Source: Woeseiaceae bacterium
GTDB taxonomy: Bacteria; Pseudomonadota; Gammaproteobacteria; Steroidobacterales; Woeseiaceae
Length of the DNA stretch: 64,000 nt
NCBI GenBank assembly: GCA_028279985.1
Contig: JANQMR010000024.1
Coordinates: 62,001 to 126,000 of the forward strand
Direction: 5' to 3'
Below, piece by piece: positions 7,017 through 24,136 of this stretch. A program made the translations under genes and the position numbers. Position 1 is the first letter of the stretch. Each line of letters opens with the position of its first letter. Under the pieces are notes generated by a model. It ran no database searches. It was not told the origin of the DNA and saw nothing but the letters and a program-made list of their open reading frames with translations.

Positions 7017-7036
7017 GCACTTTCGCAAACGGTCCG

Positions 7037-8488
7037 TCACGGACGTCGCGTCATGGGCTCGAGCGGAAACTCCGGATGTTCGGTTCTCGCCCCCCGCAAC
7101 GCGTCCATCAGGCGCGCCGTCACGTCGGGGTGCTTTGTCGCCAGGTTGACCGATTCGCCAGGGTCGGTGCCAAGGTCGTAGAGCTCGGGTTCCGCGTCCA
7201 GGAACTTGACGAGCTTCCAAGGCCCGCTGCGCAGCGCCTGAATCGGGCCCCGGCGTTCGTTGAATTCCCAGTAGAGAAACGCGTGACGCGCCTGGCCGTC
7301 CTCATCGCCCAGCGCGGCCGGCAGGTAGGAAATGCCGTCGTTCGGCGGACAGTCGGTCACCGCCGCAAGCTCGCAGGCGGTCGCCATGAAGTCCCAGAAG
7401 GCTGAAACGTGCGCGGTCTCGGCGCCCGCCGGGACCGAACCCGGCCACCAGGCGATCGTCGGCATGCGGATGCCGCCCTCGTACAGGTCACGCTTGCCGC
7501 CGCGGAACGGGCCGTTGCTGTCGAAAAAGCCCCGGTCGTATTCGTGGCCGTTGTCGCTGCTGAAAATCACCAGCGTGTCGTCGGCGATGCCCCGCTCACG
7601 CAGGCGATCGAGGATACGCCCGACGTCCCGGTCCAACCGCGACACCATCGCAGCGTAGGACACGTTGCCTTCCGCATCGTGCTTGTAGTGCCCGTCGGTC
7701 TTCATCGCTCGCTCCGGCCAGCCGAGGTCCCGGTACGGCGCCCGCGAGTCCTCGGGCGCGGCCGCCGGAAAATGCGGCAGCGCCGAGGCGAAGTAGAGAA
7801 AAAAGGGCCGCTTGCCGGCATTGCGGTCGATGAAAGCCAGCGCCTCGTCGGCCAGCAGGTCCTGAATATAGCGCCTGTCGTCCTTGCCGTGATCCTTGCC
7901 GTGCTCGACGTAGGACCCGGTTTCCGTGCCAGTCGTGTCTTCTGCGAGCAACTCGACCGCATCGTTGCGGTAGAGAACCGTCTGGTCGCGATAGTGATAA
8001 TGCGCGTCGACGTGGCGCCGGTAGCCGAAAAACTCGTCGAAGCCCTGGCGGCTAGGCATCGCGGCCAAAGACTCGCCGCGGCGCTCCGCGAGCCCCCACT
8101 TGCCGACGATCGCGGTCCGGTAGCCGGCGTCCCGCAGCACCTCGGCGACCGTCGTGTCGGCTTCCGTCAGGTCCACCGGCAGGCCGCCCTTGGTCCAGCG
8201 CGGATTGCCGCGGATCGGCGAGTGGCCTGTGTGCAGGCCCGTCATCAGGCTAGCACGCGACGGGCCGCAGACGGGCGAGCCGGCGTAGTGGTCGGTGAAC
8301 CGTATGCCCTCGCGCGCCATCTGATCGAGGCGCGGCGTGCGGATCTTGGTCTGCCCGAAGGCGCCGACGTCGCCGTAGCCGAGGTCGTCGGCGAGGATGA
8401 AAACGATATTGGGACGCTCGTCCGCGGCAGCGGCGAACGCGACTAGCAGCGACGAGACCAACAGCAGCAAACCGGCGGCAGTTTTCAC
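7037..8488 (-). CDS. Sulfatase (S1 family, arylsulfatase A-like), periplasmic
   Basis: A 483-residue protein with a clear signal peptide (MKTAAGLLLLVSSLLVAFAAA). The first metal site is LADDLGYGDVG (34-44), and the maturation motif is C74 in SPVCGPSRASLMTG, the canonical Cys-X-Pro-X-Arg converted to formylglycine by a sulfatase-maturating enzyme not present here. VGKWGL, FSSDNGHEY and ELYDLGTDPGESVNLA complete the family signature. The start is a GTG that overlaps the TGA of the preceding glycosidase gene (GTGA), indicating translational coupling. It should hydrolyse sulfate esters on oligosaccharides released by the neighbouring glycosidases; position specificity is unknown. Confidence 0.94.
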   Translation of the reverse strand: MKTAAGLLLLVSSLLVAFAAAADERPNIVFILADDLGYGDVGAFGQTKIRTPRLDQMAREGIRFTDHYAGSPVCGPSRASLMTGLHTGHSPIRGNPRWTKGGLPVDLTEADTTVAEVLRDAGYRTAIVGKWGLAERRGESLAAMPSRQGFDEFFGYRRHVDAHYHYRDQTVLYRNDAVELLAEDTTGTETGSYVEHGKDHGKDDRRYIQDLLADEALAFIDRNAGKRPFFLYFASALPHFPAAAPEDSRAPYRDLGWPERAMKTDGHYKHDAEGNVSYAAMVSRLDRDVGRILDRLRERGIADDTLVIFSSDNGHEYDRGFFDSNGPFRGGKRDLYEGGIRMPTIAWWPGSVPAGAETAHVSAFWDFMATACELAAVTDCPPNDGISYLPAALGDEDGQARHAFLYWEFNERRGPIQALRSGPWKLVKFLDAEPELYDLGTDPGESVNLATKHPDVTARLMDALRGARTEHPEFPLEPMTRRP

Positions 8489-9942
8489 AGCCTGCCCTCG
8501 ATGCGAAAGTCGGCGCGGGTGAAGGACATCTCCGGTGCGACGAGCTCGGCCGAGTCGCCGTCGCCGCGGAGCTCGATCGACCGGTAGGCGCCGAAGCCGT
8601 CGTCCGTTTCGACCAGTGCCGTGGCCGCGAGGCGTTCTTCGAGCCGGGAACCGTCGAAGCGGACACGGACCGCGCGATCGCCGTCCGACTTGTTCAACAC
8701 GAAGACCAGCACCGTATCCCCCTGCTTCACGGCGTATCCGTAGCTGCTGTCGTCCAGCGTGAAGCTTCTCAAGAACTCCCCGCCCTGCGCCGCCGCGATC
8801 AGGGCCATGCCCAGGTGGAAGGGATTCTTGCGATAGCCGTGGCGAGTGCTGAGCAAGCCACCGCCGTCGCGGTGATCCGACGCGCCCGGCAGCACCGTGC
8901 TCCAGAACGCCGTGCGGTCCCAGTTGCCGATCAACAGCTCCGAGAGGAAATCCGTGAGCAAAAGCCCGCGGCTGTAGCGGTCGAAACCGCGCAGGTTTTC
9001 CTCCTTGCCCAAGCCATATTCGTTGTTGGCGATCAGCAGGCCCGGGCGGCCGGCCTGCCGCGCGATCTCGCGATAGAAGTCCGCCGCCTCCCGCCAGACC
9101 CGCCCGCCGGCCTTACGGTCGAAGTTCTTGCGGTCGCGCAGCGGATGTTCGCTGCGCCATTCGTCGAAAGTGCCGGGCTCCAGGCCCGGCGGATCGCCGC
9201 CGTAGGGCCATTTGCCGTGGGTCTCGAAACCGTCCGCCGTGCCGCGGTCGTGCGCGAGGAAGCGCCGGATGCGTTCCGGATCGCCGGGGTTGTCGTTCCA
9301 GAACACGCGGATCTCAGGGTCTTCGCGCTTCATCGCAACGGCGTGTTCGGCGAACACGGCCGCGAAGGCCTCGATACCGCCGTGACGGTGGATGTCCTCG
9401 TTGCCGATGTACCAGTCCGCGCCGCCCGAACCCTGCGCCTTGACGTAGCGCACCATCGCGGCGGCGCGCTCGATGCTGTCGCCGCGGCGGTCGAAGCGTT
9501 CTCCCGACAGCGAGTTGACGCCGAACACCGGCGCGATACCGCTGGCCTTCACGAACGCCAGGTACTCGTCGAGGCTCATCCATTCGTCCGGCGGCGCGTC
9601 GCTCGCCGGCGACCAGTCGGGATCCCAGTTGTCGCCGACCAGGACGCCGGTCGGCGACCGCCAGTTCCAGTACTGGACCACCGTGCCACCCGGGTAGCGG
9701 CCGAGCGTAATCCCCGCCTCCCGGGCCCAGCGGGCGAACGCGCCGTCCGCGTAGATCTCGTCCTGCTCCGAGGAATAGACGAAATGCAGGCCGACGAGCC
9801 GGTCGCTGACGCGGAATTGCGGCGCCGCGGTGTCGATCGTGACCACGTCGCCGTTCGCCGCCGCGCCGGATGTGCTCGCCGTGACAGCCATGACTAAGGC
9901 CGCTGCGCACACCGTTGCAAGGCCGGGCAGCGCCTTGACCAT
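8485..9942 (-). CDS. Putative clan GH-A glycoside hydrolase, exported (paralogue of next upstream gene)
   Basis: 485 residues with a signal peptide (MVKALPGLATVCAAALVMAV). I cannot place it in a named GH family. The barrel-type features are RYPGGTVVQYWNWRSPTG (82-99), reminiscent of GH39/GH51/GH79 N-terminal strands; E182 in WYIGNED as candidate acid/base; and E308 in IANNEYGLG as candidate nucleophile. The spacing of about 126 residues fits a retaining (beta/alpha)8 enzyme. A short beta-domain follows. It closely resembles the first 520 residues of the adjacent 804-residue protein but lacks that protein's C-terminal modules. Alternative upstream starts exist (ATG 9975, GTG 10020); 9942 was chosen for the signal peptide. 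Likely role: cleaving the sulfated galactan. Confidence 0.75.
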   Translation of the reverse strand: MVKALPGLATVCAAALVMAVTASTSGAAANGDVVTIDTAAPQFRVSDRLVGLHFVYSSEQDEIYADGAFARWAREAGITLGRYPGGTVVQYWNWRSPTGVLVGDNWDPDWSPASDAPPDEWMSLDEYLAFVKASGIAPVFGVNSLSGERFDRRGDSIERAAAMVRYVKAQGSGGADWYIGNEDIHRHGGIEAFAAVFAEHAVAMKREDPEIRVFWNDNPGDPERIRRFLAHDRGTADGFETHGKWPYGGDPPGLEPGTFDEWRSEHPLRDRKNFDRKAGGRVWREAADFYREIARQAGRPGLLIANNEYGLGKEENLRGFDRYSRGLLLTDFLSELLIGNWDRTAFWSTVLPGASDHRDGGGLLSTRHGYRKNPFHLGMALIAAAQGGEFLRSFTLDDSSYGYAVKQGDTVLVFVLNKSDGDRAVRVRFDGSRLEERLAATALVETDDGFGAYRSIELRGDGDSAELVAPEMSFTRADFRIEGRL

Positions 9943-10024
9943 CGCGCCGGGGCGAAACCGGTCGACTACGTGCATACGCACGAGGGCCCGCGGCCCCGAC
10001 TGTCGCACAGAACGAAACACGCGA

Positions 10025-12439
10025 CTATTCGATGAAGATCGCGTCCAACCAGACGCCCGCCTGGTCGCCGCCGGAGAAGCGGATCTTCTCTAGCGTCGTC
10101 GCACCGCCGCTGTACGGCAGCGTGCCCGATACCCAGGCGCCGTTGTTGAACTCGACGACGTAGCCGCCGGCGGCGAGCTTCAAGACAATACGCCGGAGCG
10201 GTGCCGGGGCGAAGGTATCGTTCATGAACTGCAGATCGCCGTCGGCGCTCTCGGGTATGGCCGTCGTGCCGTTCACCGGATCGACGTAATACAGTCGCCT
10301 GTCCTCACCGGCCGTCGAGCTGGCGCCGAGCACCAGCTCGAAGGACTTGTTGCCGGCGGCGTCCAGCCCGGCGACCGTGATGTCCTTGCTGCGGTCGGCC
10401 GCGGTGCGGCGCAGCGCCGCCCTGAAGTCGACCTGCACGCCGTCGAGCGCGGCAGCGGCGCGGAAGATGCCGTCAATGGCGAAACCGCCGGCGACGCGAT
10501 CGATCAGCAGGGCGTTGTTGCCGGGCCTGCCCGCCACGTCGACGCCCGCTGCCGGTACGTTGTCCCAATTGCCGACCGCGGTGCCCGCGTCCAGGTTCGC
10601 GGCGTTGGTGTCGCTTTGCTTGGCGGCGTCGTTGAACGTCGCCGTGAACAGCTCGGAGGTCACCGGCACGGCGGTGAGCTCCGAGCCAAAGGACTCCCGG
10701 TCCCACTTGTCGACGGCGACGACCCGGTAGATGTAGCTCGCGCCGTTGACGAGGCCGGTATCGATAAACGATCCCTCGCTCAGGTTGCTGGCGATCAGGT
10801 CCAGCGGGGCATTCGGATTGTTGCCGCGATAAACCCGGTACTCCGAGAAAAACGGCGCGGTCGAGGCGCTCCAGCTCAAGGACACCTGGGCGTCGCCGGC
10901 AATCGACGTCAGATCGGCGACCGGCCCCGGCGGCTTCGGCCACGGGATAGGCGTGCGCGGAAACACGATTCGGGTATACGACAAGGGCGGCAATTCGCCC
11001 GTGAACATCCGCGCCAGCTTGTCGTACTCAATGGCCGTATCGACGTACTCGCCGAAATCGTCCTCGGTATCGACCATCGAGATCGCCTCGATCGTAGACC
11101 TACGGCACCATTTGCGGAAAAAGCGCGGCAGGCGGTCGCAAAAGCCCGCCGGTAAGGCCACGAGGGGATTCAAACGGACGCCGTCGATGCCTATCCGCAC
11201 CGGCTGCGCAGCCGTCGACTTGTTGATCAGGTATACCTGCAACTCGCCCGTGGTTTTCGCCGAGAAGCCGTGGACCTGCAGGAAGTCCGTCTGCGAGCGC
11301 ACCATCGTCGCACCCTGCGCCCGGCCGAGCAGGCCCAAGCCGAGATGCACCGGGTTCTTGCGGAAATTGTTGCTCGGGCTCACCAAGGCGCCTTCGTCGG
11401 AATTCAAGACGTTGCTCCAGAAGGCCGTCGAATACCAGTTGCCGAGGAAATGTTCCTGCAGCATGTCGGTCAGCAGCAAGCCCTTGGTGTAGCGATCGAA
11501 GCCGATCAGGTTTTTCGCGCGTCCCAGGCCGTATTCGTTGTTCGCGATCAAGAGACCCGGCCGGCCGGCGGCGATTGCCGCGTTGCGATAGGTGTTCGCG
11601 GCAAAGCGCCAGGCGCGGTTGGCGTTCTTCCGGTCCCGCACCGGCACCTCGACCAGCCACTCCTCGAAGGTGCCCGGCGGCCGGTTGGGATCGCCGCCGA
11701 AGGGCCATTTGCCGTGCGTCTCCAGGCCGTCGGCGGTGCCGCCGTCGTTCGCCAGGAAGGTCCTGATGTTGTTGGCGTTGGCGCCGTTGACGTTCCAGAA
11801 AACCAGGATGGTCGGGTCGGCCTGTTTCATCGCCTCGGCGTGCGCCCGGAAGGCCCTGGCGTACTTCGCGATGCCGCCGCCGTGCAGGTTCTCCTCCTCG
11901 TTGCCGATGTACCAGATCGCGCCGCCGTAGCCGCGGTCCCTGACGTACTCGACCATGCGCACCGCCCGATCGACGCTGTCCTGCTGCCGGTTGTACTTGT
12001 GCCCCGACAGCGAGTTGACGCCGAACATCGGCCGGATGCCGCTCTGATCCACGAAGGTCAGGTATTCGTCCAGGCTCATCCACTCCGACGGCGGCGCGTT
12101 GTCGGTCGTGTTCCAGTTCGGGTTCCAGGGATCGCCGGTGCCTACGCCGGTCGGGTTCTCCCAGTCCCAGAACTTGACGATGGTCCCACCCGGATAACGT
12201 CCCGTACCGATACCGGCCTCCCTGGCCCAGGCGGCAAGCTCACCGTCTTCGTAGATCACGTCCTTTTCGTTGCTGTAGACGAAGTGAACACCCACCATCG
12301 TATCGCTGATGACCCACCTTTCATCGTCGGCCGAAACGGTGACCTCGACGGCCGCCGCCTGGTGCGCAATCAGACCGAACACGACAGACATTAGTGCCGC
12401 CACGGTCACACCGAGTTGTCTTGTGCAGATATCGTTCAT
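10025..12439 (-). CDS. Putative clan GH-A glycoside hydrolase with FN3 and C-terminal beta-sandwich module
   Basis: 804 residues, signal peptide ending near IAHQAAA (about 30). The catalytic region (about 40-520) shares long blocks with the neighbouring 485-residue protein: HFVYSNEKDVIYEDG, RYPGGTIVKFWDWENPTG, E181 in WYIGNEE and E302 in IANNEYGLG. A fibronectin type III domain follows at about 527-617 (GDAQVSLSWSAS...SYIYRVVAVDKWDRES), then a region of about 185 residues rich in beta strands that may bind carbohydrate. The ATG is preceded by GGGGGTGACGAG, a strong ribosome-binding site. Catalysis by the two Glu residues is inferred from motif shape; the family is unassigned. Confidence 0.75.
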   Translation of the reverse strand: MNDICTRQLGVTVAALMSVVFGLIAHQAAAVEVTVSADDERWVISDTMVGVHFVYSNEKDVIYEDGELAAWAREAGIGTGRYPGGTIVKFWDWENPTGVGTGDPWNPNWNTTDNAPPSEWMSLDEYLTFVDQSGIRPMFGVNSLSGHKYNRQQDSVDRAVRMVEYVRDRGYGGAIWYIGNEEENLHGGGIAKYARAFRAHAEAMKQADPTILVFWNVNGANANNIRTFLANDGGTADGLETHGKWPFGGDPNRPPGTFEEWLVEVPVRDRKNANRAWRFAANTYRNAAIAAGRPGLLIANNEYGLGRAKNLIGFDRYTKGLLLTDMLQEHFLGNWYSTAFWSNVLNSDEGALVSPSNNFRKNPVHLGLGLLGRAQGATMVRSQTDFLQVHGFSAKTTGELQVYLINKSTAAQPVRIGIDGVRLNPLVALPAGFCDRLPRFFRKWCRRSTIEAISMVDTEDDFGEYVDTAIEYDKLARMFTGELPPLSYTRIVFPRTPIPWPKPPGPVADLTSIAGDAQVSLSWSASTAPFFSEYRVYRGNNPNAPLDLIASNLSEGSFIDTGLVNGASYIYRVVAVDKWDRESFGSELTAVPVTSELFTATFNDAAKQSDTNAANLDAGTAVGNWDNVPAAGVDVAGRPGNNALLIDRVAGGFAIDGIFRAAAALDGVQVDFRAALRRTAADRSKDITVAGLDAAGNKSFELVLGASSTAGEDRRLYYVDPVNGTTAIPESADGDLQFMNDTFAPAPLRRIVLKLAAGGYVVEFNNGAWVSGTLPYSGGATTLEKIRFSGGDQAGVWLDAIFIE

Positions 12440-12473
12440 CTCGTCACCCCCGTTGAATAGCGTTCTCAATTGA

Positions 12474-14027
12474 TTACTTTCTTTCGCGCTCCGTTCTGTC
12501 CTCGATCGACTCGAGCATTGCCTGAAGCTCCGCAACAACGCCGGGACGTTCGGCGGCGAGGTTGTTCTGCTCGCCGATATCGACCGACAGGTCGTAGAGC
12601 TGGGGCTCCTTGCTCAGACCGTGCTCGATGTTCTTGGTGTGGAACCACCTCGGCAGGTTGGCGTCGGCGGCCAGCGGCTCGATGTATTTGAGATTGCCCC
12701 TGCGAATCGAAAAGGTTCGCATCGATTCCTTGAACAGCACATGACGTCCCGTGTCACTGCTTCCAAGCAGCGCATCGAGAACGTTGCGACTGTCGATGGC
12801 TTCGGCGGTATCGAGCTCCACGCCGATCAGTGCGGCCAGCGAGGCATAAAAATCGACCTGGGAGACGACGGCATCGCTGTCGCCGGGCGGCACGGTGCCC
12901 GGCCAGTAGACGATCGTCGGCACGCGCGCACCGGCCTCGAAGGCGCTGTACTTGCCGCCGCGGAACGGGCCGCTCGGATTGTGTTCGCCGACGAGTTCGA
13001 CCGCCCGATCGTCGTAGCCGTCGTCCAGCACCGGGCCGTTGTCGCTGGTGAAGATCAACAAGGTATCGTCGGCGATACCCAGCGCCTCGAGCTCCCTGAC
13101 GATCTCACCCGTCATCCAGTCCGTCTGCACGATGGCGTCGCCGCGCGGTCCCATCCGGCTTTTGCCCTGAAAGCGCGGGTGCGGCAACCGCGGCACATGA
13201 ATGTCGTGGAAGGAGTGGAACAGGAAAAACGGCCCTTCCTTGTTGTCCCTGATGAAGGCAAGCGCCTTCTCCGTGAACACGTCGGGAAACTCCTCGTCGA
13301 TCCACAACGCGCTTTCGCCGCCGGCCATGTAGCCGATGCGCGAAACGCCGTTGACGATCGTCGCGCTATGCTGCGGGTTGGCCGTCACGCGCAAAAGCTC
13401 GGGGTTCTCGGTGCCGGTGGGCCGGTCCCCCACCTTCCTGCCGTAGCTGACCGTGATCGGATCGGCCGGGTCGAGACCGACGACGCTGTGATTCTCGACG
13501 TAGACGGTCGGCACACGATCGCCGGTAGCCGGTAAAAGGAACGCGTAGTCGAAGCCGATCTCCAGCGGTCCGGGTTCGATGGTTCCGTTCCAGTCGACGT
13601 CGCCGTCGCCCAGGCCGAGATGCCATTTGCCGACAACCGCTGTCGCGTAGCCTGCCTCCCGTAACATCGCGGGTAGCGTCGGCTGCCCGGGCCGGATCAA
13701 CAGCGACGCATCGCCCGCCAGTACCCGTGCCCGGCTGCGGAAACCGTACTCGCCGGTCAGCAAGGCATAACGCGACGGGGTGCAGGTAGCCGCTGCGGCG
13801 TGCGCATCGGTAAAACGAATGCCGTTGTCGGCCAGGAAATCGATGCTGGGGGTCTCCACACCGACCGCGCCGTAGCTGCCGACGTCGGCATAACCCAGGT
13901 CGTCAACGTAAATGACAATGATGTTCGGCAAGCGCGGCTGGTCCGCGGGCGGAGCCGTCGGCTCGTCCGGGTCGGTGCCACATCCCGCCAGAAGTGCAAA
14001 AAGCACCAAAAAGCCAAGTCGTATCAT
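12474..14027 (-). CDS. Sulfatase (S1 family), lipoprotein
   Basis: A 517-residue sulfatase anchored by a lipoprotein signal: MIRLGFLVLFALLAGC, lipobox LAGC, with C16 as the acylated residue. The metal-binding DD is in YVDDLGYADVG, and the formylglycine precursor is C82 in TCTPSRYALLTG. VGKWHLGLGDG, SFHDIHVPRLPHPRF, TSDNGPVLDDG and QLYDLSVDIGEQNNLA are family signatures. The ATG overlaps the TGA of the giant upstream gene (ATGA), so the two are translationally coupled. Attachment to the outer membrane would place it beside the TonB-dependent receptor. Regiospecificity is unknown. Confidence 0.94.
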   Translation of the reverse strand: MIRLGFLVLFALLAGCGTDPDEPTAPPADQPRLPNIIVIYVDDLGYADVGSYGAVGVETPSIDFLADNGIRFTDAHAAAATCTPSRYALLTGEYGFRSRARVLAGDASLLIRPGQPTLPAMLREAGYATAVVGKWHLGLGDGDVDWNGTIEPGPLEIGFDYAFLLPATGDRVPTVYVENHSVVGLDPADPITVSYGRKVGDRPTGTENPELLRVTANPQHSATIVNGVSRIGYMAGGESALWIDEEFPDVFTEKALAFIRDNKEGPFFLFHSFHDIHVPRLPHPRFQGKSRMGPRGDAIVQTDWMTGEIVRELEALGIADDTLLIFTSDNGPVLDDGYDDRAVELVGEHNPSGPFRGGKYSAFEAGARVPTIVYWPGTVPPGDSDAVVSQVDFYASLAALIGVELDTAEAIDSRNVLDALLGSSDTGRHVLFKESMRTFSIRRGNLKYIEPLAADANLPRWFHTKNIEHGLSKEPQLYDLSVDIGEQNNLAAERPGVVAELQAMLESIEDRTERERK

Positions 14028-17000
14028 CGCGGTCGATTCCTTTGCTGTTTTTCCGTCAGCGGCAGCCAGGTCCTGAGTGGCGGGAAGACGGGCTCGAGCA
14101 TCTGCTCGTCCCATCGCCGGTGTTCGGCGCGGAGCGCGGCCAAGCGTTCGCCATTGGCTCCGGCCAGGTTTCGCGTCTCGGCAGGATCCCGGCCGAGGTC
14201 GAATAGCAGGCGCTCGTCCGGTGTCCAGATCGCCTTCCAGATCGCCTTGTTGTCGCCGCGCAGGATGGCGGCCTCGCCGGCATCGAAGCGGCGCCAGTAG
14301 AGCGCCTCGTGCGGCGGACCCGATTTTCGGCCGGTTAAAAAGGGAACCAGATCCACGCCGTCCAGCGGATGCTCGATCGAGATCGCGGCACCGGTCCGCG
14401 CCGCAACCGTCGCCATGATGTCCAGCGATATGACGGGCTGCGAATACTCCCGTCCCGCCTCGATCACCGCCGGCCAGCGCAGCGCAAACGGTACCCGCAG
14501 GCCGCCTTCGAACAGCGTGCGCTTGCGACCGCGCAGCGGTGTGTTGCGCGAGGCAAAACCGGTGCCGCCGTTGTCCGACAGGAAAACCACGAGGGTGTCA
14601 TCGGCGATTCCCTCGTCGTCGAGCGCGTCGAGCACGCGGCCGACGCCGTCGTCGACGGCACTGACCATCGCCGCATAAGCCCGGCGCTTTTCGTCCGCGA
14701 CGTGTGCAAAACGCTGGAGATACTTTTCGGTCGCCTGTAACGGCGAATGCGGTGCGTTGTAGGACAGATACAGAAAAAACGGCCCGCCGCTCCGGCGGCG
14801 GATGAAATCGACGGCCTTGTCGGACAGCTCGTCGGTCAGATAACCGTCGATATCCACTGCGCGCCCGTTGTGGCGCAGCCGCGTGCGATACCAGTCGAGG
14901 TGCATCTCGGCGTCGGAGAGATTGTCGAGCGTCAGCTCTTCCGGAAAATAACGGTGTCCCCCGGTCAGGAAACCGAAAAACTCGTCGAAGCCGCGCTGCC
15001 TCGGACGCAGGTCCGGATGCGTGCCGAGATGCCATTTACCGACTGCCATCGTCGCGTAGCCCGCGGATTTGAGCGCTTCCGCGATCGTCGTCTCCGACAA
15101 CGGCAAGCCGCCGAGGGGATCGGCCGGGTCGTTGTTCGGGTTGCGGTCGAAACCGAAGCGGCTCTGATACCGGCCCGTCATCAGGCCTGCCCGGCTCGGC
15201 GCGCAAATGGAGTGGCTGACGTACCCGCGGGTAAATGTCACGCCCTCGGTCGCAACGCGGTCGATGTTGGGCGTCGGGATTTCCGTGCCGCCGGTGAAAC
15301 CGACGTCCGCGTAGCCAAGATCGTCGGTGACAATTAAGACAACGTTTGGATCGATGTCCGTATAAGCTTGGTCGTCGGTAGCGATCGGGACAACGTTTGG
15401 GCTGTCACTGCGACGGGCCGAAGGCAGGTTCGCCGGCTCGGTATACGCGTCGATGTCCACAGTCCGCGTCGGCAGACCGTCGCTGCCGACGGCGACCCGA
15501 ATCGAACCCGGTGCGCCGGTGGACTGCACCAGCGCCAGCGCCTTGCCGCGGAAGGCGCGGCGCGAATCGGCCTTGGTCGAGTCCAGATCGAGGATGTCGC
15601 CGTTCTCGACGCCGATCAGGCGACCCGGACCGCGGACGTCGAAATGCAGGCGGTTGCCGGCTTGCGGCACCAGCGTCCCCTTCGCATCGACGACATCGAC
15701 TTCGATGCGGGCCACGGCGCGGCCGTCCGCCGGCATCCCGCCGCGGTCGGACACGACGCGCAGCGCCGCGGGTTCAGCGGCCGTCCGGCGAATCGCCGTG
15801 CGCGAGACACCGTTTTTACCGCGCGCGACGACGCGCAGCTCGCCGGGCGTGTACGGCACCGTCCAGACGATCTGCATCGCGTCGGTCATCGGCTTTTCGC
15901 CGAGCGAATCGCCGTTCAGGAACAGCTCGGCACGGTCCAGGTTCGTGTAGACGACCACCGGGATGCCGACGCCCTCCTTGCCCGGGTGGGTCCAGTGGGG
16001 GTCCAGGTGCACCATCGGCAGCTCCGACCACTGGCTGCGGTACAGGTGATAGGGGCCCTTGGGAAAACCCGCGAGATCGATGATCCCGAAGTTCATGGTC
16101 CGCGCCGGCCAGCCGCGGGACTCGCCCAGGTAGTCGAACGCCGTCCAGCGGAAGGTGCCGATCAGGTAAGGCAGCTCCCGCGCCAGCCGGATCTCTTCGC
16201 GGATCGGCATGCGCACCAGGTTGTTGTCGAACGAGGACGCGTACTCCAGCGGCTCTTCCGGCCACACTTCCGTCGCCGACAAGTCCGGCACCGGGTACAC
16301 GCGCGACTTGATGCGTTCCCAGATTTCCGCGGCGGTCCTGTTCGGGTTGTTGAGCTCCCAGGGCGCCGGGTTGTCGCGCGTGCGGTATTCGGTTTTCGAA
16401 CGGTAGACGCCGCGCGTGTGCAAGGAGTGGGTGATTTCCGTGCCGACGACGACCCGTTCGGGGTTCTCGGCGTGGAACTTCTCGATCGCGCCGACGAACT
16501 CGCCGTGGCCGTTGAAGCCCGCGATGTCCGCGTGCGGATAACTGTAGCCGCGCCCCTGCGTGATCGGCCGCGTCGTATCCAGCGAGCGGATGTGATCGAC
16601 GAGCTTTTTCTGCGTCTCCGCCGTCGCGTCGCGCACCTCGTTGCCGACGCTCCAGAGAATCACGCTCGGGTGATTGCGGTCGCGCCGGATGAAGGCGTCG
16701 AGGTCCTTTTGCCACCAGTCCTCGAAGTACAGGCCGTAATCGTACGGCGCCTTCGGCGTCTCCCAGCCGTCGAAGGCCTCGTTCATGACCAGGAAACCCA
16801 TCTCGTCGGCGAGGCGGTAGAACTCCGGCGCAAACGGATTGTGCGCCGTGCGCAGGGCGTTCGCACCCATGTCCTTGAGCAGTTCCAGGCGATGCCGCCA
16901 GACGTCCTCGGGCACCGCCGCGCCGACCGGCCCGCCGTCGTGGTGCAGGCAGACGCCCTCGAGCTCCAGCGGCTCGCCGTTGAGCAGGAAACCGCGGTCG

Positions 17001-19405
17001 ACCGTGAACTCGATGGACCGCAGCCCGGTCACGGTCTCGTAGCGGTCGAGCGGCCCGCGCGAATCCGACAGCGTGAACACCGCGGTGTAGAGGCTCGGCG
17101 CATCCGGCGACCAGAGCCGGGGCGCCGTCACGTCGAGCTGCTGGTCGACCGACGTGGTGTCGCCCGCGGCAAGGGTGACCCGCGATTCGCCGCGCGCGAC
17201 TTCGACGCCGTCGGCATCGAGCAGGCGCAGGGTCGCGGTCGCGTCGATCGGCGCGTCTTGCGAATTGACGACCTCGTGCGTGGCGAGGACCGTGGCCCGT
17301 TCGCGGCCGACGTCCGCACCGCGCACGAAAGCGCCGTGCTCGCGGACGTGCACGGGGCCGGTGACCGTCAACCAGACGTCGCGGTAGATGCCCGAGCCGG
17401 TGTACCAGCGGCCGCTGGGCAGCTTGCTGTTGTCGACGCGCACGGCGATCGTGTTCTCGCCTTCACGCAACAGGTCCGTCAGGTCCAGCGAGAACCCGAT
17501 GTAGCCGTAAGGCTGGTAGGCGCGCTCCTCGCCGTTGACGTAAACGCGAGCGTTCATGTAAACGCCGTCGAACGTCAGGCGAACCGCCTTGTCTTCCCAA
17601 CCCGGGTCGTAGTCGATCTGCTTCCGGTACCAGCCGACGCCGCCGGGCAGGAACGCGCCGGGCGCGCCGGCCGGATGGTCCTCGGCATAGTCGCCTTCGA
17701 TGCTCCAGTCGTGCGGCAGGTCGAGCAGCCGCCAGCCGCCGTCGTCGAAACCGGGTTCCGCGGCGCCTTCGATATCGCCCAGCGCAAACGACCAGTCGTC
17801 GGTGAACAGCCGGCGTTGCCGTTCGGAGTTCGTTTCGTTCGCGGCCGCGGCAGCGAGCGGCGGGGTCGCATCGGGATCGAAATTGAAACCGGCGTAGGGC
17901 GAACGGGTCCTGGCGTCGTTCAGGATCGTCCGCATCTCGGCAACGACGGCCGGATGCTCGGCGGCGACGTTGCGGGTTTCGGCGGGGTCGCTCGCGAGGT
18001 CGTAGAGCTCGATGGGCGCGTCGGGGTCGTAGCCTTGCGGCTGCGGGCGCAGCACTTTCCAGTCGCCGCGGCGCACGGCCTGCGCGGGATGCGGCTGGCG
18101 GCCGTGAAACTCCCAGTACAGATAAGCATGTGCCGGCTGTTCGCCGCGCCCCGTCAACAGCGGCGCAAAGGAGATGCCGTCGACGCCCTCGGGCGTCTCG
18201 GCCCCGGCCAGCTCGGCCAGCGTCGGCAACACGTCCCACTGCGCCGAGACGTGGTCGCTCGAGCGCCCGGCCTCGATCACCGAGGGCCAGTACGCGATCA
18301 TCGGCACGCGTATGCCGCCTTCGTGGAGGTCGCGCTTGACGCCGCGCAGGCCGCCCGACGAATCGAAAAAGTCGACGTCCTGGCCGCCCTCGGGCGCGGG
18401 CCCGTTGTCGCTGGTGAAGACGACCAGCGTGTTCTCGGCGAGCCCCAGGCGCTCCAGGCGCTGCAGGATCTTGCCCACGTCCGCGTCGAGTCGCGAAATC
18501 ATCGCCGCGCGGGCCGCGCGCGGTTTCGGGTGCGGCGTGTAATCGCCGTCGTCCAGCGGCGTTTCCGTCCAGCGGCCCTCGTAGGCCTCGAGCTCGGCGT
18601 CCGGGACCTGCAGCGCCGAATGCGGGATCGTCGCTGCGTAGTAGAGGAAAAACGGCTCGTCTTTCGCGCGCTCGATGTAGTCCAGCGCTGCCTCGATCAA
18701 GCGGTCCGGCGCATAGTCCTCGCCGATGTATTGCCGGTAGTCCTCCGCACGGTCCGAGGTACCGGCCATATCCGCGTGCGGAATGAAAAAACGGTTATTG
18801 AGCGCGACGCGCTCGTCGTTACGCCACAGGTGCGTCGGATAGTAGTTGTGCGCCTGCTTCTGGTCGAGGTAACCGAAGAAATAGTCGAAACCGTGTTTGT
18901 TCGGCACGCCCGCGCTGCCGGGCCCGCCGAGTCCCCATTTGCCGACCAGGCCGGTCCGGTAGCCGGCGCCGCGCAACACTTCGGGCAGCGTCTCGTAGGC
19001 GAAATCGATGGACATCTGTCCACGTTCTTCCTCGTCGCGGAAGCCGCCCAGCTCGTAGTTACCGCGGATCTGCACCCGCCCCGTGTGCTGGCCGGTCATC
19101 AGTGCGGCGCGCGACGGCGCGCACACGGTGCTACCGGCGTAGTGCTGCGTGAACAGCAGCCCCTCCGCCGCCAGGCGGTCCAGGTTGGGCGTGTCGATGT
19201 GCGCCTGGCCGTAGGCACCGAGGTCGCCGTAACCCAGGTCGTCGGCCAGGATATAGACGACGTTGGGCCTGGGCGGTGCTGCCGGAGCGGCGTCGCCGGA
19301 GCCGGCGGCCCGCAGCCCGGCAGAACCGCCGGTCTCGCCGCAGGCGCTAAGCAGCAGCGCAAACGCTAAACCGGGTACTACACGAGCGCGGCGCGAAAAA
19401 GTCAT
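14024..19405 (-). CDS. Trifunctional lipoprotein: sulfatase - GH2 glycosidase - sulfatase fusion
   Basis: A single 1793-residue reading frame carries three enzymes. The lipoprotein signal MTFSRRARVVPGLAFALLLS ends at the acylated C22 (LLSAC). Sulfatase 1 spans about 45-500: DD55-56, C95 in TVCAPSRAALMTG and TSDNG near 331-335. A GH2 beta-galactosidase-type region spans about 530-1320: jelly-roll start, DVWLTVTGPV, acid/base E923 in SVGNEVRD, nucleophile E990 in VVVGTEITHS, then a DUF4982-like part (RAELFLNGDSLG) and further beta domains. Sulfatase 2 spans about 1353-1793: DD1361-1362 and C1401 in SICAPSRAGLMTG. Both sulfatases keep complete motifs, so all three sites look active. The junction has a 17-residue duplication of the sulfatase start. 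It lies 10 bases after the receptor gene stop. It would remove two sulfates and cleave a galactosyl bond on one surface-tethered chain. Confidence 0.9.
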   Translation of the reverse strand: MTFSRRARVVPGLAFALLLSACGETGGSAGLRAAGSGDAAPAAPPRPNVVYILADDLGYGDLGAYGQAHIDTPNLDRLAAEGLLFTQHYAGSTVCAPSRAALMTGQHTGRVQIRGNYELGGFRDEEERGQMSIDFAYETLPEVLRGAGYRTGLVGKWGLGGPGSAGVPNKHGFDYFFGYLDQKQAHNYYPTHLWRNDERVALNNRFFIPHADMAGTSDRAEDYRQYIGEDYAPDRLIEAALDYIERAKDEPFFLYYAATIPHSALQVPDAELEAYEGRWTETPLDDGDYTPHPKPRAARAAMISRLDADVGKILQRLERLGLAENTLVVFTSDNGPAPEGGQDVDFFDSSGGLRGVKRDLHEGGIRVPMIAYWPSVIEAGRSSDHVSAQWDVLPTLAELAGAETPEGVDGISFAPLLTGRGEQPAHAYLYWEFHGRQPHPAQAVRRGDWKVLRPQPQGYDPDAPIELYDLASDPAETRNVAAEHPAVVAEMRTILNDARTRSPYAGFNFDPDATPPLAAAAANETNSERQRRLFTDDWSFALGDIEGAAEPGFDDGGWRLLDLPHDWSIEGDYAEDHPAGAPGAFLPGGVGWYRKQIDYDPGWEDKAVRLTFDGVYMNARVYVNGEERAYQPYGYIGFSLDLTDLLREGENTIAVRVDNSKLPSGRWYTGSGIYRDVWLTVTGPVHVREHGAFVRGADVGRERATVLATHEVVNSQDAPIDATATLRLLDADGVEVARGESRVTLAAGDTTSVDQQLDVTAPRLWSPDAPSLYTAVFTLSDSRGPLDRYETVTGLRSIEFTVDRGFLLNGEPLELEGVCLHHDGGPVGAAVPEDVWRHRLELLKDMGANALRTAHNPFAPEFYRLADEMGFLVMNEAFDGWETPKAPYDYGLYFEDWWQKDLDAFIRRDRNHPSVILWSVGNEVRDATAETQKKLVDHIRSLDTTRPITQGRGYSYPHADIAGFNGHGEFVGAIEKFHAENPERVVVGTEITHSLHTRGVYRSKTEYRTRDNPAPWELNNPNRTAAEIWERIKSRVYPVPDLSATEVWPEEPLEYASSFDNNLVRMPIREEIRLARELPYLIGTFRWTAFDYLGESRGWPARTMNFGIIDLAGFPKGPYHLYRSQWSELPMVHLDPHWTHPGKEGVGIPVVVYTNLDRAELFLNGDSLGEKPMTDAMQIVWTVPYTPGELRVVARGKNGVSRTAIRRTAAEPAALRVVSDRGGMPADGRAVARIEVDVVDAKGTLVPQAGNRLHFDVRGPGRLIGVENGDILDLDSTKADSRRAFRGKALALVQSTGAPGSIRVAVGSDGLPTRTVDIDAYTEPANLPSARRSDSPNVVPIATDDQAYTDIDPNVVLIVTDDLGYADVGFTGGTEIPTPNIDRVATEGVTFTRGYVSHSICAPSRAGLMTGRYQSRFGFDRNPNNDPADPLGGLPLSETTIAEALKSAGYATMAVGKWHLGTHPDLRPRQRGFDEFFGFLTGGHRYFPEELTLDNLSDAEMHLDWYRTRLRHNGRAVDIDGYLTDELSDKAVDFIRRRSGGPFFLYLSYNAPHSPLQATEKYLQRFAHVADEKRRAYAAMVSAVDDGVGRVLDALDDEGIADDTLVVFLSDNGGTGFASRNTPLRGRKRTLFEGGLRVPFALRWPAVIEAGREYSQPVISLDIMATVAARTGAAISIEHPLDGVDLVPFLTGRKSGPPHEALYWRRFDAGEAAILRGDNKAIWKAIWTPDERLLFDLGRDPAETRNLAGANGERLAALRAEHRRWDEQMLEPVFPPLRTWLPLTEKQQRNRPR
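15299..15400 (-). repeat. 51-bp in-frame tandem duplication at the GH2/sulfatase junction
   Basis: Residues 1336-1352 (PNVVPIATDDQAYTDID) and 1353-1369 (PNVVLIVTDDLGYADVG) are adjacent copies of the sulfatase N-terminal metal-site strand. At DNA level about 36 of 51 positions agree between 15350-15400 and 15299-15349. The second copy is the functional one; the first has diverged and may act as linker. It marks the point where a separate sulfatase gene was probably joined to the GH2 gene. Confidence 0.85.
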
Positions 19406-19415: not shown

Positions 19416-22127
19416 TTACAAACGGAAGCGCACGCCGGCAAACCACTTACGCCCGCTGTGCTCGGTGAAGTTGACGAGATTGTCGTAAGGCGCAAGGGCA
19501 TTCGGCGACGTCGGTACGTGGCGGACGACGGTCGGATCGTCCGTGAGGTTCAAGCCCTGGAACACCAGCGTTATCGCGTCGGTGAGCTTGTAGGAGACGT
19601 TGAGATCGAGAATGTCGCTGCCGTCGTCCAGGCGGTTGCCGCCGATCGGGCGAAAAAACTCGTCGCGGTTCCGGTACGCGATACGCCCCGAGAACGCGCC
19701 GTCGTCGTAAAACAATGCCGCATTGAAGACGTTGTCGGAAACGCCGGCGAGCCCGACCGTGTACTGCGCGTTCGGGTTGAAGACGAACTCGATGTCGTTT
19801 TCGATCAACGTGAAGTTGACGGCCGCGCCGACGTGTCTCAGCGGACCGGGCAGGAAGCTGAAGGTCTGCTGGTACTGGACTTCGACGCCCTGGATGTTCT
19901 CGTTCGCTTCTTCGTTGACCGGACGGCTCACGGTGAAGTCGACGCCGTCGTAGGTTTCGATCGCGTCTTCCGACGAATTCGGGAAAATGACCGTGTCGAG
20001 ATCCTTGAAAAAGGCGGCCACGGAAAACAGCCCGTCTTCGGCGAAGTAGTACTCCAGCGACAGGTCGAACTGGTTCGCCTCGAACGGCTCGAGGAACGGA
20101 TTGCCGCCGGAGCCCGTGGGCTGGCCGATATTTTGGTTAAAGCCCAGCGTCCGCGTGGCGCCGAGCGTGTCGATCGGCGCACGCGCGATCGTCTGCGCGG
20201 CGCCGAAGCGCAACAGTAAATCGGGCGTCAGCTCGAAGTTCAGGTTCAGGTTCGGCAGCACGTTGCTGAAATCGTTCTCTAGCCTGACGGGCTCGGGGTC
20301 GCCGAAAATCACGTCGGTCACTTCACCGGTCCCCGGGTCGATGATCACTTCGACGACGTCGGCGGCAAAGCCCCGCGAGCTCACGTCGGTTTGCACGACA
20401 CGAACGCCGATGTCGCCGAAGAACGGCAGACCGGACAGCTCGCCGCCAAACTCGAGCATCAGGTAGCCGGCCAGCCGGTCCTCCTCGACGTCGTAGCTCG
20501 AGGCCAGGTCGCTGACGCTTTCGCGGTCGAACGGGAACGGCCCGCCGACTTCGGCGAACACGCCGATGGGATCGAAAACGGGCCAGGCCTGCGGAAACGC
20601 GCCGTCGGCGCCGCCCAGAAAATCGTCGTAGGGGAAATCGACGCCGTAGGCGGCGACCGGCCGCGGGTCGTTGTTGACGTTGAAGGCCCGCACGTCGTTG
20701 TCGAACAGGCTCTCCTTGCTCCGGCTGACGTAACGCAGGCCCGCGCCGAACGCGGTGAAAAACGCGCCGTCGAGGCTGCGCTCGACGTCGACGCGCCCGG
20801 CGTAGAGCTCGTCCGTCACGTCCTGCTGCTGGAGCTGCAGCCGCTGCAGCCGAAAATCGTCGTTCGTGCCCAGGGCGTCGGCGGATACGAGCTCGTAGAC
20901 GCCGTCGTCCACCATCCGGAAAGCCGCGTTGACGCGGGGAGGAACGCGCTGGCTGCGCGGCTGGTAGAGGACCCGGTCGCGCGTCGTTCGCGAATAGCTG
21001 CCGTCGGCGTTGACGCTCCAGTCGCCGAGGCCCCAGTCGAGGTTGACGCCGAAAGCCGAGGACACGTCTTCCTGCGTGAGATGCTGCATCTGCACGCGGA
21101 CCGGCCCGATGTTCGAATAATCCGCCGCCGTCATGACGTTGTTCGAATCGACGGCCGACGTGCCCGTGTCGAAGCCGGCGTTGCCGGCGCGCGCGTTGTT
21201 GAACTGCAGGAACGAACGGCGATCAATGCCTTCGCGATCCGTATGCAGGCCGTCGACCGTCAGGCGCAGCGCCGGCGAGATGTCGTATTGCAGTGTTGCA
21301 TAGGCGCCGATTCGATCGTCGGTGCCGTGCGTGTAGCGGTACTGGATGTTGCCCGGCGCAAAGTCGTTGGTGCCGTCCGCGTCGAAGTCTCGGTTATCCA
21401 CGAAGGCGCCGTTGATCTGCCGGTTGGTGGGCGTGTCCGAATCGCGAAACGCGATACCCGCCGCGAAGCCCAGCCGTCCGTCGAGGTGCTTGCCGATGTA
21501 CGCCCCGCTGCCGCGCAGGCCGAAACCGTCGCTGCCGCTGCGATCGGCATCAAGCTCCGAGAAATTGCCGAGCACCTGCCCGGTGAAGACGCGATCGGCG
21601 TCCGTCTCCAGCGGCTTGATCGTCTGCAGGTTGATCGTTCCGGAGATGCCGCCCTCGATCAGGCTCGCCTGCGGCGTCTTGTACACCTCGGCGCCCCGCA
21701 TCAGCTCGGACGGGAACTGATCGAAGCGGACGTCGCGGTCGGGCGCGGCGGTGGATATCTCGCGGCCGTTTAAGATCGTCAGGCCGAAATTCGGCCCGAG
21801 ACCGCGGATGGAAATCTGCGAGCTGTTGCCGCGATCCCGGTCGGCGGCGAGGCCGGGGAGCCGCTCCAGCGACTCGGCAATCGACAAGGACGGCAATGCG
21901 CCGATGTCTTCCTGGGCGAGCACGTCGCGAATGTCCTCGGCAGCCCGCTTGTTCTCGCGTGCGTCGAACAGGCTGCGGCGGTAGCCCGTCACGTGAATCT
22001 CGTCGATGACATCCTGGTCCGCGCCGGTGCGATCCGGCTCCGTTCCCGGTTCCTGCGCCACCACCCGATTCGAGATCACGCCGGCAACGCCGATCAGCAG
22101 CAAGGCTGCATAACGACTGGTCGTCAT
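19416..22127 (-). CDS. TonB-dependent outer-membrane receptor, carbohydrate type
   Basis: A 903-residue receptor with signal peptide MTTSRYAALLLIGVAGVI up to VVAQ. The plug domain follows (IHVTGYRRSL, ALPSLSIAESLERLPGL, QISIRGLGPNFGLTILNGRE), with a long beta-barrel ending FAGVRFRL. The plug signature matches the large proteobacterial receptors that import oligosaccharides with energy from TonB-ExbBD. As first gene of the operon with sulfatases and glycosidases, it is the likely entry port for sulfated galactan fragments; there is no SusD-like partner, as usual outside Bacteroidota. The ATG at 22127 follows GGGGGT. Transcription probably starts near the AT-rich motif at 22242-22262. Confidence 0.94.
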   Translation of the reverse strand: MTTSRYAALLLIGVAGVISNRVVAQEPGTEPDRTGADQDVIDEIHVTGYRRSLFDARENKRAAEDIRDVLAQEDIGALPSLSIAESLERLPGLAADRDRGNSSQISIRGLGPNFGLTILNGREISTAAPDRDVRFDQFPSELMRGAEVYKTPQASLIEGGISGTINLQTIKPLETDADRVFTGQVLGNFSELDADRSGSDGFGLRGSGAYIGKHLDGRLGFAAGIAFRDSDTPTNRQINGAFVDNRDFDADGTNDFAPGNIQYRYTHGTDDRIGAYATLQYDISPALRLTVDGLHTDREGIDRRSFLQFNNARAGNAGFDTGTSAVDSNNVMTAADYSNIGPVRVQMQHLTQEDVSSAFGVNLDWGLGDWSVNADGSYSRTTRDRVLYQPRSQRVPPRVNAAFRMVDDGVYELVSADALGTNDDFRLQRLQLQQQDVTDELYAGRVDVERSLDGAFFTAFGAGLRYVSRSKESLFDNDVRAFNVNNDPRPVAAYGVDFPYDDFLGGADGAFPQAWPVFDPIGVFAEVGGPFPFDRESVSDLASSYDVEEDRLAGYLMLEFGGELSGLPFFGDIGVRVVQTDVSSRGFAADVVEVIIDPGTGEVTDVIFGDPEPVRLENDFSNVLPNLNLNFELTPDLLLRFGAAQTIARAPIDTLGATRTLGFNQNIGQPTGSGGNPFLEPFEANQFDLSLEYYFAEDGLFSVAAFFKDLDTVIFPNSSEDAIETYDGVDFTVSRPVNEEANENIQGVEVQYQQTFSFLPGPLRHVGAAVNFTLIENDIEFVFNPNAQYTVGLAGVSDNVFNAALFYDDGAFSGRIAYRNRDEFFRPIGGNRLDDGSDILDLNVSYKLTDAITLVFQGLNLTDDPTVVRHVPTSPNALAPYDNLVNFTEHSGRKWFAGVRFRL

Positions 22128-22241
22128 TGGATTTACCCCCCGTTTTTTCAAAGCTCCCGGCAGCCATTTTTTTCGATGGCGCCCCGCACAGACAGTCCAT
22201 CGCCGTGGTTCGATTGCCGGCTCGACCGATACTCTATTCAA

Positions 22242-22362: not shown

Positions 22363-23082
22363 TTAAGACGCCGCCTCGGATGCCGCCGACATGTCCAGCA
22401 ATTGCAGCGCCTCGTCCAGCATACGCTCGACCGCGAGCGCGGCCCCGTCGCCGTCGCCGCGGGCAATCGCTTCGTAGATGGCGCCGTGATCGTCGACGCT
22501 GGCAGCACGAACGCCCTTCGCGGTATTGGTCAGGCGAATCGAAAACCGCAACGCGGTATCGACGACGAAAGAGAACTGGCGAAAAAAGCGATTGCCGCTG
22601 GCCTCCAGAACGGCAATGTGAAAAGCGATGTCGGCCTCCAGCGGATCCCGGGCGCCGGTGGCGGCTTCGCGCATATCGTCGAGCCGGCGTGCGATCTCCG
22701 CAATGGCTTCGCCGTCCCGGTGCGAGGCCGCCTCGCGGGCCGCAGCGGGCTCGATCGCCCTGCGGGCGATCAGGAATTCGCGCAGCAAATCTATGGAGAA
22801 GCGGCGCTGCAAGGTCCAGCGCAGGACGTCCGGGTCGAACAGGTTCCATTCGGATTCGGGCTCGACGTAGGTGCCGCGGCGCGGGCGCGAACCGACCAGG
22901 CCTTTTGCCGTCAGCATCTTGATCGCTTCGCGTACCACGGTTCGACTGGCGTCGTACTGCTTCGACAGCTCGGCTTCGATCGGCAGGCTCTCGCCGGCCG
23001 GTGCGTCGCCGCGCACGATCATCCCGCCGATCGCTTCCACCAATTCCCGGGTCAGGTACCGGGACCCGCCTTTGTAACTCAT
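22363..23082 (-). CDS. GntR family regulator, FadR/FCD subfamily
   Basis: 239 residues. The N-terminal winged helix covers about 5-75 (LSKQYDASRTVVREAIKMLT and GLVGSRPRRGTYV), followed by an FCD effector domain (LRWTLQRRF, FLIARRAIEPAAAREAA, DIAFHIAVLEASGN) whose His and Asp residues usually bind a metal and a sugar acid. It is the last gene of the galactonate operon, so it probably senses a pathway intermediate such as galactonate or 2-keto-3-deoxygalactonate and represses both operons. Its ATG overlaps the TGA of a 42-codon reading frame that duplicates its own N-terminus. Confidence 0.92.
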   Translation of the reverse strand: MSYKGGSRYLTRELVEAIGGMIVRGDAPAGESLPIEAELSKQYDASRTVVREAIKMLTAKGLVGSRPRRGTYVEPESEWNLFDPDVLRWTLQRRFSIDLLREFLIARRAIEPAAAREAASHRDGEAIAEIARRLDDMREAATGARDPLEADIAFHIAVLEASGNRFFRQFSFVVDTALRFSIRLTNTAKGVRAASVDDHGAIYEAIARGDGDGAALAVERMLDEALQLLDMSAASEAAS

Positions 23083-23204
23083 GTCGCCTCCATCGGCAGG
23101 CTCTCGCCAGCCGGTGCGTCGCCGCATACGATCGTCCCGCCAATCGCTTCCACCCACTCGCGGCTCGGGTATCGGGACCCGCCTCTATGGCTCATGTCAC
23201 AACT
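22979..23204 (-). repeat. 113-bp tandem duplication covering the 5' end of the GntR gene
   Basis: Bases 22979-23091 and 23092-23204 are adjacent direct copies, alike at most positions over the first 105 or so bases. The unit includes the start codon region and the first 37 or so codons of the regulator gene. Because 113 is not a multiple of three, the upstream copy ends in TGA exactly at the ATG of the intact gene. Confidence 0.85.
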
Positions 23205-23207
23205 CAT
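23079..23207 (-). pseudogene. Truncated duplicate of the GntR N-terminus (42 codons)
   Basis: The frame reads MSCDMSHRGGSRYPSREWVE and continues to GESLPMEAT. It matches the first 37 or so residues of the downstream regulator (MSYKGGSRYLTRELVEAIGG) and stops before the recognition helix. Its ATG overlaps the TGA of the SMP-30 gene, and its TGA overlaps the ATG of the regulator, so the ribosome path through the operon stays coupled. Several substitutions are conservative (S/T, R/K), so it may still be translated; a useful product is doubtful. I treat it as a gene remnant. Confidence 0.7.
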
Positions 23208-24136
23208 GCCACCTCCATTCCGGCCCGGCGCAATACCGAATCCTGAAGCCGTGCGCGGGGCGTCGAGCCGCCGCACACGCCAGTTTCGAATACGAACAAG
23301 GCGCCCGACGAGGGACTTGCCTCGAGCGTGTCCTCGCCGAGCCCTGCGCGGGCGCTGACGACGAACAGCAGATTGCCGTTCGGACCGCCGAAAGCCGGGC
23401 AGGTCGGCTGCGGCGCCTCGACGTCGATACGCGCGAGTTCGTCGCCGCGCCGCGACAGGCGCAATACGCAGCCGCCGCCCCACAACGCAAGCCATAAACC
23501 GCCGTCGGCATCGGTCACCGCGCCGTCGGGTGCGCCGTCTTCGAAGCGGGTCAATACCTCGCGCTGCCCCGGCGTCCCGGAGCCGACGTCGAACGGCGCC
23601 GCATACACCTCGCCGAGCGCCGAATCGGAAAAGTACATGCGGTCTCCTTCGGGGCTCCAGCAAAGACCGTTGGTAATGCGCAGCCCCTCGAACACGGCAG
23701 CACCACAGCCGTCCGCGCCGATGCGATACATCGTACCCCGCGGCTGCGCCTCCTGCCGCGCAGGCCCCTCCAGCATCGACCCGGCCCAGAAGCGTCCGGC
23801 CGGATCGACGCGCCCGTCGTTGAGCCGCAAGCCCGGACCGAGCGCGGCCGGCCGGCACAGCCAGGCGAGACGGCCGGTCTCAGGCGCGTAGAGGGCGAAA
23901 CCCGATTCGAACGCGGCCAGCAACAAGTCGTCGCGGCCGGCGACGAAACCGAACGAGCCCAGCCGCTCGGGGGTACGATAGGTATCGAGTTTCAGCGACG
24001 GCCACGCAAGGCGATGGCAGCGGCGCCCTTCGATGTCCGTCCACCAGACCGTGCGGTCGCTGTCGCGCCAGAGCACGCCCTCGCCCAGCGTATCCCGGGT
24101 CTCGACGGTTTCGATCAGACGGGCGCGAACGCTCAC
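23204..24136 (-). CDS. SMP-30/gluconolactonase family sugar lactonase
   Basis: 310 residues, six-bladed propeller lactonase family. Signatures: LGEGVLWRDSDRTVWWTD with the metal ligand E19; LGPGLRLNDGRVDPAGRFWA; GLRITNGLCWSPEGDRMYFS; and PDGAVTDADGGLWLALWGGG. Members hydrolyse aldono-1,4- or 1,5-lactones using a divalent metal. In this operon it would open the galactonolactone made by the SDR dehydrogenase. The start is GTG overlapping the TGA of the symporter gene (GTGA). Expected to be cytoplasmic, since no signal peptide is seen. Confidence 0.92.
   Translation of the reverse strand: MSVRARLIETVETRDTLGEGVLWRDSDRTVWWTDIEGRRCHRLAWPSLKLDTYRTPERLGSFGFVAGRDDLLLAAFESGFALYAPETGRLAWLCRPAALGPGLRLNDGRVDPAGRFWAGSMLEGPARQEAQPRGTMYRIGADGCGAAVFEGLRITNGLCWSPEGDRMYFSDSALGEVYAAPFDVGSGTPGQREVLTRFEDGAPDGAVTDADGGLWLALWGGGCVLRLSRRGDELARIDVEAPQPTCPAFGGPNGNLLFVVSARAGLGEDTLEASPSSGALFVFETGVCGGSTPRARLQDSVLRRAGMEVA

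Follow-up and report, generated by a model that had tools for sequence, protein, structure and literature searches.

Among the closest described counterparts of the protein analysed here is P36 from the ulvan locus of Formosa agariphila, where an S1_25 sulfatase domain and a GH78 domain act consecutively on the same terminal rhamnose (PMC8511951). In the λ-carrageenan locus of Pseudoalteromonas, where the enzymes are separate proteins, a GH2 enzyme acts only once the terminal galactose is fully desulfated (PMC12549532). The sulfatase subfamilies of interest are known from stand-alone enzymes. BT1622 (PDB: 7ana) and BT1636 (PDB: 7an1), both S1_20, remove the 3-sulfate from galactose or GalNAc (PMC10154620), and in BT1636 a histidine reads the axial O4 of galactose while a glutamate and an arginine read O2 (PMC10154612). 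Among S1_19 enzymes, PsS1_19A can act on internal G4S residues (PMC6923384). A second characterised S1_19 relative, S1_19B, is exo-acting. Here we describe a gene that joins an S1_20 sulfatase, a GH2 module and an S1_19 sulfatase in one frame, together with the locus around it. The window, meaning the whole stretch of DNA that was analysed, is 64,000 nucleotides long.

Results

One frame encodes a lipoprotein with two sulfatases and a GH2 module

The gene and its parts, all on the minus strand, are as follows, with the basis of each call in brackets.

14024..19405, minus strand: whole gene, lipoprotein S1_20-GH2-S1_19, 1793 aa (ORF, Pfam, residue check)
19340..19405, minus strand: lipoprotein signal peptide, lipobox LLSAC, lipidated Cys22 (sequence)
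17861..19276, minus strand: N-terminal S1 sulfatase, aa 44-515, nearest S1_20; C95 at 19121-19123 (structure-sequence matches)
17819..17860, minus strand: linker 1, aa 516-529 (stands in for the S1_20 C-terminus and stop and the GH2 signal peptide of a congener)
15437..17818, minus strand: GH2 module, aa 530-1323, five Pfam sub-domains; E923 at 16637-16639, E990 at 16436-16438 (Pfam, structure-sequence matches)
15350..15436, minus strand: linker 2, aa 1324-1352, 29 residues (congener comparison)
15299..15400, minus strand: tandem imperfect 51-nt duplication, 36/51 identical (sequence)
14066..15349, minus strand: C-terminal S1 sulfatase, aa 1353-1780, nearest S1_19 carrageenan 4-sulfatases; C1401 at 15203-15205 (structure-sequence matches)

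On translation, the frame runs from M1 at 19405 to a stop ending at 14024 and holds 1793 codons with zero internal stops, as an earlier note on this DNA had claimed; the strand, which that note did not give, is minus. The start at 19405 is favored because the stop of the TonB-receptor gene ends at 19416, 10 nt before this ATG. The resulting N-terminus, MTFSRRARVVPGLAFALLLSAC, is a lipoprotein signal. An alternative ORF of 1825 aa starting at 19501 overlaps the TonB-receptor gene and is less likely. Of the surface tethering proposed in the earlier note, the LLSAC lipobox bears out the membrane anchor and gives no indication of the outer-membrane face.

Pfam recognizes two full Sulfatase domains (together 1.7e-127) and, between them, GH2 N-terminal, sandwich, barrel, DUF4982 and C5 domains. 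All three enzyme domains align full-length to solved enzymes. The residues named in the earlier note, C95 and C1401 (both in CAPSR), both DD sites, E923 and E990, were all found at their given positions. The S1 catalytic sets are intact (C95/C1401, K156/K1457, H262/H1553, D333/D1611), as are the DD pairs D55-D56 and D1361-D1362 of the N- and C-terminal domains; an extra, decayed DD lies at D1344. The GH2 glutamates sit in WSVGNE (E923) and VVGTE (E990), so that the fold modules, acid/base and nucleophile are present. GC content at codon position 3 (GC3) stays high through both junctions. Neither junction has an in-frame internal start with a signal peptide; the modules are therefore expected as one chain. 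The S1-GH2-S1 anatomy is far beyond chance, and a sulfatase and a glycosidase share one uninterrupted chain, as in multimodular enzymes of the P36 kind. The proposal of a lipid-anchored three-enzyme chain with active-site residues intact in every domain is thus supported.

Nearest relatives predict action on sulfated galactose

The best solved relatives of the N-terminal domain are 7ana (401 bits) and 7an1 (342 bits), followed by a match at 225 bits, with S1_4 (7all) at 147. H186, E339 and R358 of the fusion align with the galactose-contacting His, Glu and Arg of BT1636, which we take to be H177, E334 and R353. These nearest relatives place the domain in S1_20 with a predicted specificity for galactose-3-sulfate. 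For the C-terminal domain, the six best solved matches are all S1_19 galactose-4-sulfatases at 324-312 bits (including 6bia, 9hh3, 6b0j and 6prm), the next being an S1_16 at 241, and a stand-alone S1_19 in congener G012 shares 55% identity with it. It is accordingly classed as S1_19 and predicted to hydrolyse galactose-4-sulfate. Since one characterised S1_19 is endo-acting, the domain could also act on internal residues.

The closest solved GH2 is the uncharacterised 3gm8, followed by beta-galactosidases, including B. circulans enzymes, and the λ-carrageenan GH2 9bey. Scores against the NCBIfam equivalogs GalB (665) and GalA (643) fall short of the cut-off of 900, and we file the module as GH2, neither GalA nor GalB. 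Its nearest characterised relatives suggest beta-galactosidase activity.

An unfused congener probably retains the state before fusion

An unfused version of the locus is found in 1 of 73 genomes of the same genus (G1031:C249, an 11.5 kb contig, locus L072). Its gene order is that of the window, namely TonB-dependent receptor (69% identity), S1_20 (65%), GH2 (57%), the GHx hydrolase described below (56%) and symporter (66%). Its S1_20 and GH2 are two genes that overlap by 14 nt (ATGCCGATCGGTAA), each with its own lipoprotein signal, and no S1_19 was seen on the 11.5 kb contig. The congener proteins confirm the domain boundaries of the fusion. Because S1_20 and GH2 are separate, overlapping and in the same order there, the fusion is taken to have arisen from operon neighbours.

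At junction 1, the match to S1_20 extends to FNFDPDATP and the match to GH2 begins at QRRLFTDDWSF. Missing between them are the S1_20 stop codon and the entire signal peptide of GH2, about 45 residues having been lost with a short linker in their place. Judged by this alignment, the junction is a deletion and not a sequencing frameshift. At junction 2, GH2 homology reaches the final residues of the congener protein and is followed by the 29-residue linker and then the S1_19 domain. This is where the duplication lies, as a decayed copy, PNVVPIATDDQAYTDID (15400-15350), and then PNVVLIVTDDLGYADVG (15349-15299), the latter being the first S1_19 strand; the decayed copy forms an extra S1 metal-site strand that ends linker 2. 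GC3 is 0.79 in the S1_19 part as against 0.87 in S1_20 and 0.89 in GH2, which suggests a later or separate arrival. The congener comparison supports a history in which S1_20 lost its stop, GH2 lost its signal peptide and an S1_19 unit was added C-terminally, so that two separately anchored lipoproteins would have become a single anchored chain.

The fusion lies in a probable sulfated-galactan locus

The neighbours of the fusion run in the same direction.

5448..7220, minus strand: S1_8-type sulfatase, nearest λ-carrageenan S1_8A (9bb9) (sequence match)
7037..8488, minus strand: second S1_20-type sulfatase, nearest 7an1/7ana (sequence match)
8485..10020, minus strand: GHx1, paralogue of GHx2 (50%), conserved GNE (E208) and NNE (E334) (sequence comparison)
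10025..12538, minus strand: GHx2, unclassified TIM-barrel-like hydrolase with fn3-like C-terminal part (profile/sequence comparison)
12474..14027, minus strand: S1_15 sulfatase, lipoprotein, nearest λ-carrageenan S1_15A (9bas) (sequence match)
19416..22241, minus strand: TonB-dependent receptor (69% identical to the congener receptor in the corresponding position)
22363..23157, minus strand: GntR/FCD regulator (profile)
23204..29907, minus strand: SGL lactonase, sodium:solute symporter, KDPGal-type aldolase, 2-keto-3-deoxygalactonokinase, SDR dehydrogenase and IlvD-type dehydratase (profiles)

Downstream of the fusion come S1_15, whose start shares 4 nt (ATGA) with the stop of the fusion gene, then GHx2, GHx1, the second S1_20 and S1_8; upstream are the receptor, the regulator and the galactose genes. 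The set from lactonase to dehydratase reads as a De Ley-Doudoroff-like galactose oxidation pathway, and the sulfatases of the locus, the fusion included, would cover O2, O3, O4 and O6 of galactose if they act as their nearest relatives do. Galactose-active sulfatase relatives and galactose oxidation genes together bear out the sulfated-galactan context proposed earlier. Among the window proteins scanned, no classical agarase or carrageenase family was recognized, which leaves the polymer as a sulfated galactan of unassigned type; GH150 and GH110 were likewise not recognized among them, the GHx pair itself being unclassified.

GHx1 and GHx2 are tandem secreted paralogues with no Pfam family above cut-off and a weak GH51/GH79-like similarity. 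A syntenic counterpart lies in the congener (L072:1530-3038, minus strand). GHx was absent from the remaining genus genomes searched and had no match in 335 Bacteroidota genomes, in a search run without a positive control. The conserved glutamates of GNE and NNE point to a retaining enzyme of clan GH-A, and the pair possibly represents a new GH family. A structure prediction of GHx1 from two sequences reached a pLDDT of 43, too poor for use. Elsewhere in the window (54973-59007, minus strand) a 1344-aa protein combines an AAA_35 domain, a proprotein-convertase P-domain and WD40 repeats.

Cys-type sulfatases require formylglycine maturation. Many such sulfatases are present in the genome, and no canonical FGE was recognized among its three PF03781 loci (G000 C40:138631, C25:158521 and C7:2902; L061-L063). 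Judged by features typical of FGE and EgtB, one of these is EgtB-like and the other two are without the cysteine pair of FGE. Maturation would have to come from an anaerobic-type enzyme or from a missing contig.

The S1-GH2-S1 order is rare in sampled genomes

The survey took in 73 genomes of the genus, 127 of the order and 369 of the class, 340-345 from Bacteroidota with a further 246 of a single family, and the inspected matches in 72,556 plasmid records; it turned up no second S1-GH2-S1 protein. For the large genome samples, scoring was limited to the best two to four candidates of each genome, and Planctomycetota and Verrucomicrobiota lay outside the survey; the absence is one from the sample, not from nature. 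Within the genomes sampled and the literature searched, the claim that no protein of this order has been described therefore stands. Three places in the plasmid records cover at least 80% of the query. The matches inspected, one of these three (Flammeovirga) and two weaker ones, are adjoining but separate GH2 and sulfatase genes; the plasmid matches also include unannotated ones from Persicobacter. A scan of genome contigs with poorly conserved peptides returned only four GH2 relatives, none seen fused. Outside the genus, the nearest GH2 (51%, G715) is a stand-alone protein whose gene has S1_15- and S1_8-like sulfatase genes next to it.

The earlier expectation that S1 sulfatases and GH2 enzymes are separate proteins thus holds for GH2. 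It does not extend to S1-GH fusions in general, which are known from P36 (S1_25-GH78; PMC8511951) and from an S1_19-GH16 protein of 1097 aa that we found in a Bacteroidota genome (L065:1593-4886, minus strand). The latter continues into FISUMP-like and secretion-sorting-like C-terminal parts, and its gene adjoins galactokinase and galactose-1-phosphate uridylyltransferase-like genes. At L066:1836-3923, no stop separates a short-chain dehydrogenase frame from the lipoprotein S1_20-type sulfatase that follows it; this is either a fusion or a pair of coupled genes that has an internal start. We rejected an apparent 1406-aa S1_20 frame (L064), in which the sulfatase is an ordinary one and the open frame upstream of it is spurious.

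Discussion

On balance, we read this protein as an exo-processing lipoprotein with three enzymes that arose by fusion of operon neighbours and belongs to a locus for sulfated-galactan use. S1_20 and S1_19 would clear the terminal beta-galactose of a galactan, probably of the seaweed type, and GH2 would release that galactose. After export, the fusion would be held by its single lipid anchor. The beta-galactose at the non-reducing end of an oligosaccharide would lose its 3-sulfate to the S1_20 domain and its 4-sulfate to the S1_19 domain. The GH2 domain would then free the bare galactose, which could be imported and enter the De Ley-Doudoroff-type oxidation encoded by the adjacent genes. Fusion may benefit the cell through matched stoichiometry and one shared anchor. 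By analogy with P36, action of both sulfatases before the GH2 cut is the most likely order, because the predicted 3S-Gal and 4S-Gal specificities combine with a λ-carrageenan GH2 that needs a fully desulfated terminal galactose. A galactose carrying both sulfates is not required by any observation, and the two sulfatases may serve alternative substrates.

The earlier note had instead proposed that the protein desulfates, cuts and desulfates again; S1_20 and GH2 would then work on the terminal residue and S1_19 on the newly exposed or internal next one. Such a division of labour would suit the ancestral pairing of S1_20 with GH2, to which S1_19 with its lower GC3 was apparently added later, and the action of PsS1_19A on internal G4S residues (PMC6923384). 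Nonetheless, S1_19B is exo-acting, and a GH2 of this type is reported to need a fully desulfated terminal galactose (PMC12549532), so that a 4-sulfate there would have to leave first. The predicted 3S/4S-Gal specificities and this need of the GH2 relative fit the other order better, and we regard the cut between two desulfations as poorly supported and unlikely, if worth keeping in view.

Other specificities altogether are less probable still. The GH2 might be another beta-glycosidase, or the sulfated glycan might not be galactose-based, given that 3gm8 has no known activity, that the GalA and GalB cut-offs were missed and that subfamily predicts specificity only approximately; yet several sulfatases nearest to galactose-active enzymes share one gene run with a galactose-type oxidation pathway. 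It is very improbable that one of the modules has lost catalysis and acts as a scaffold or in binding: the decayed duplicate of the first S1 strand at junction 2 and the lack of a recognized FGE among the PF03781 matches might hint at this, but each of the three modules retains all its catalytic and metal residues and the duplicate strand lies outside the S1_19 domain. An assembly or sequencing artefact joining separate genes is barely credible even for a single metagenome-type genome with one assembly of the species, as a frameshift error would spare the signal peptide, while here some 45 residues have given way to a short linker, junction 2 adds an entire module in frame, and the outer flanks (TonB receptor and S1_15) are in register.

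Returning to the exo-processing lipoprotein, a bolder version of it would be a single-chain machine in which the O3 and O4 sulfatases and the beta-galactosidase pass one chain end between their sites, feeding on a multiply sulfated galactan opened by a new GH family (GHx1/GHx2); we offer this tentatively and think it unlikely in its full form. The fusion predicts that O3 and O4 desulfation is coupled with beta-galactose release at one chain end, and the unfused operon state within the same genus makes a before-and-after comparison of separate and fused enzymes possible. A possible use of the fusion is as a single-protein tool for work on sulfated galactans.

Compared with the known systems, P36 is like the fusion in carrying a sulfatase and an exo-glycosidase on one chain in a marine polysaccharide locus; its sulfatase clears the terminal sugar and its glycosidase then removes that sugar. 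It differs in having one sulfatase, of another subfamily, with a GH78 rhamnosidase acting on ulvan in Bacteroidota, whereas the fusion has two sulfatases of different subfamilies around a GH2 and is a lipoprotein of a galactan locus. The Pseudoalteromonas λ-carrageenan locus shares S1_8A-, S1_15A- and GH2-type enzymes with the window and follows a cyclic sulfatase-then-glycosidase logic ending in galactose, but all its enzymes are separate, it has no S1_20, and it uses GH150 and GH110; S1_19 is mentioned there only for the kappa/iota pathway (PMC12549532). The S1_19-GH16 protein likewise joins S1_19 to a galactan-type glycoside hydrolase, with its GH16 on the C-terminal side, a sorting-domain-like C-terminus and one sulfatase, in all of which it is unlike the fusion. 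BT1636 and BT1622 (S1_20) and PsS1_19A/B (S1_19) are the nearest solved relatives of the sulfatase domains, but are stand-alone enzymes. What is new is the domain arrangement; sulfatase-glycosidase fusions as such are already characterised in P36.
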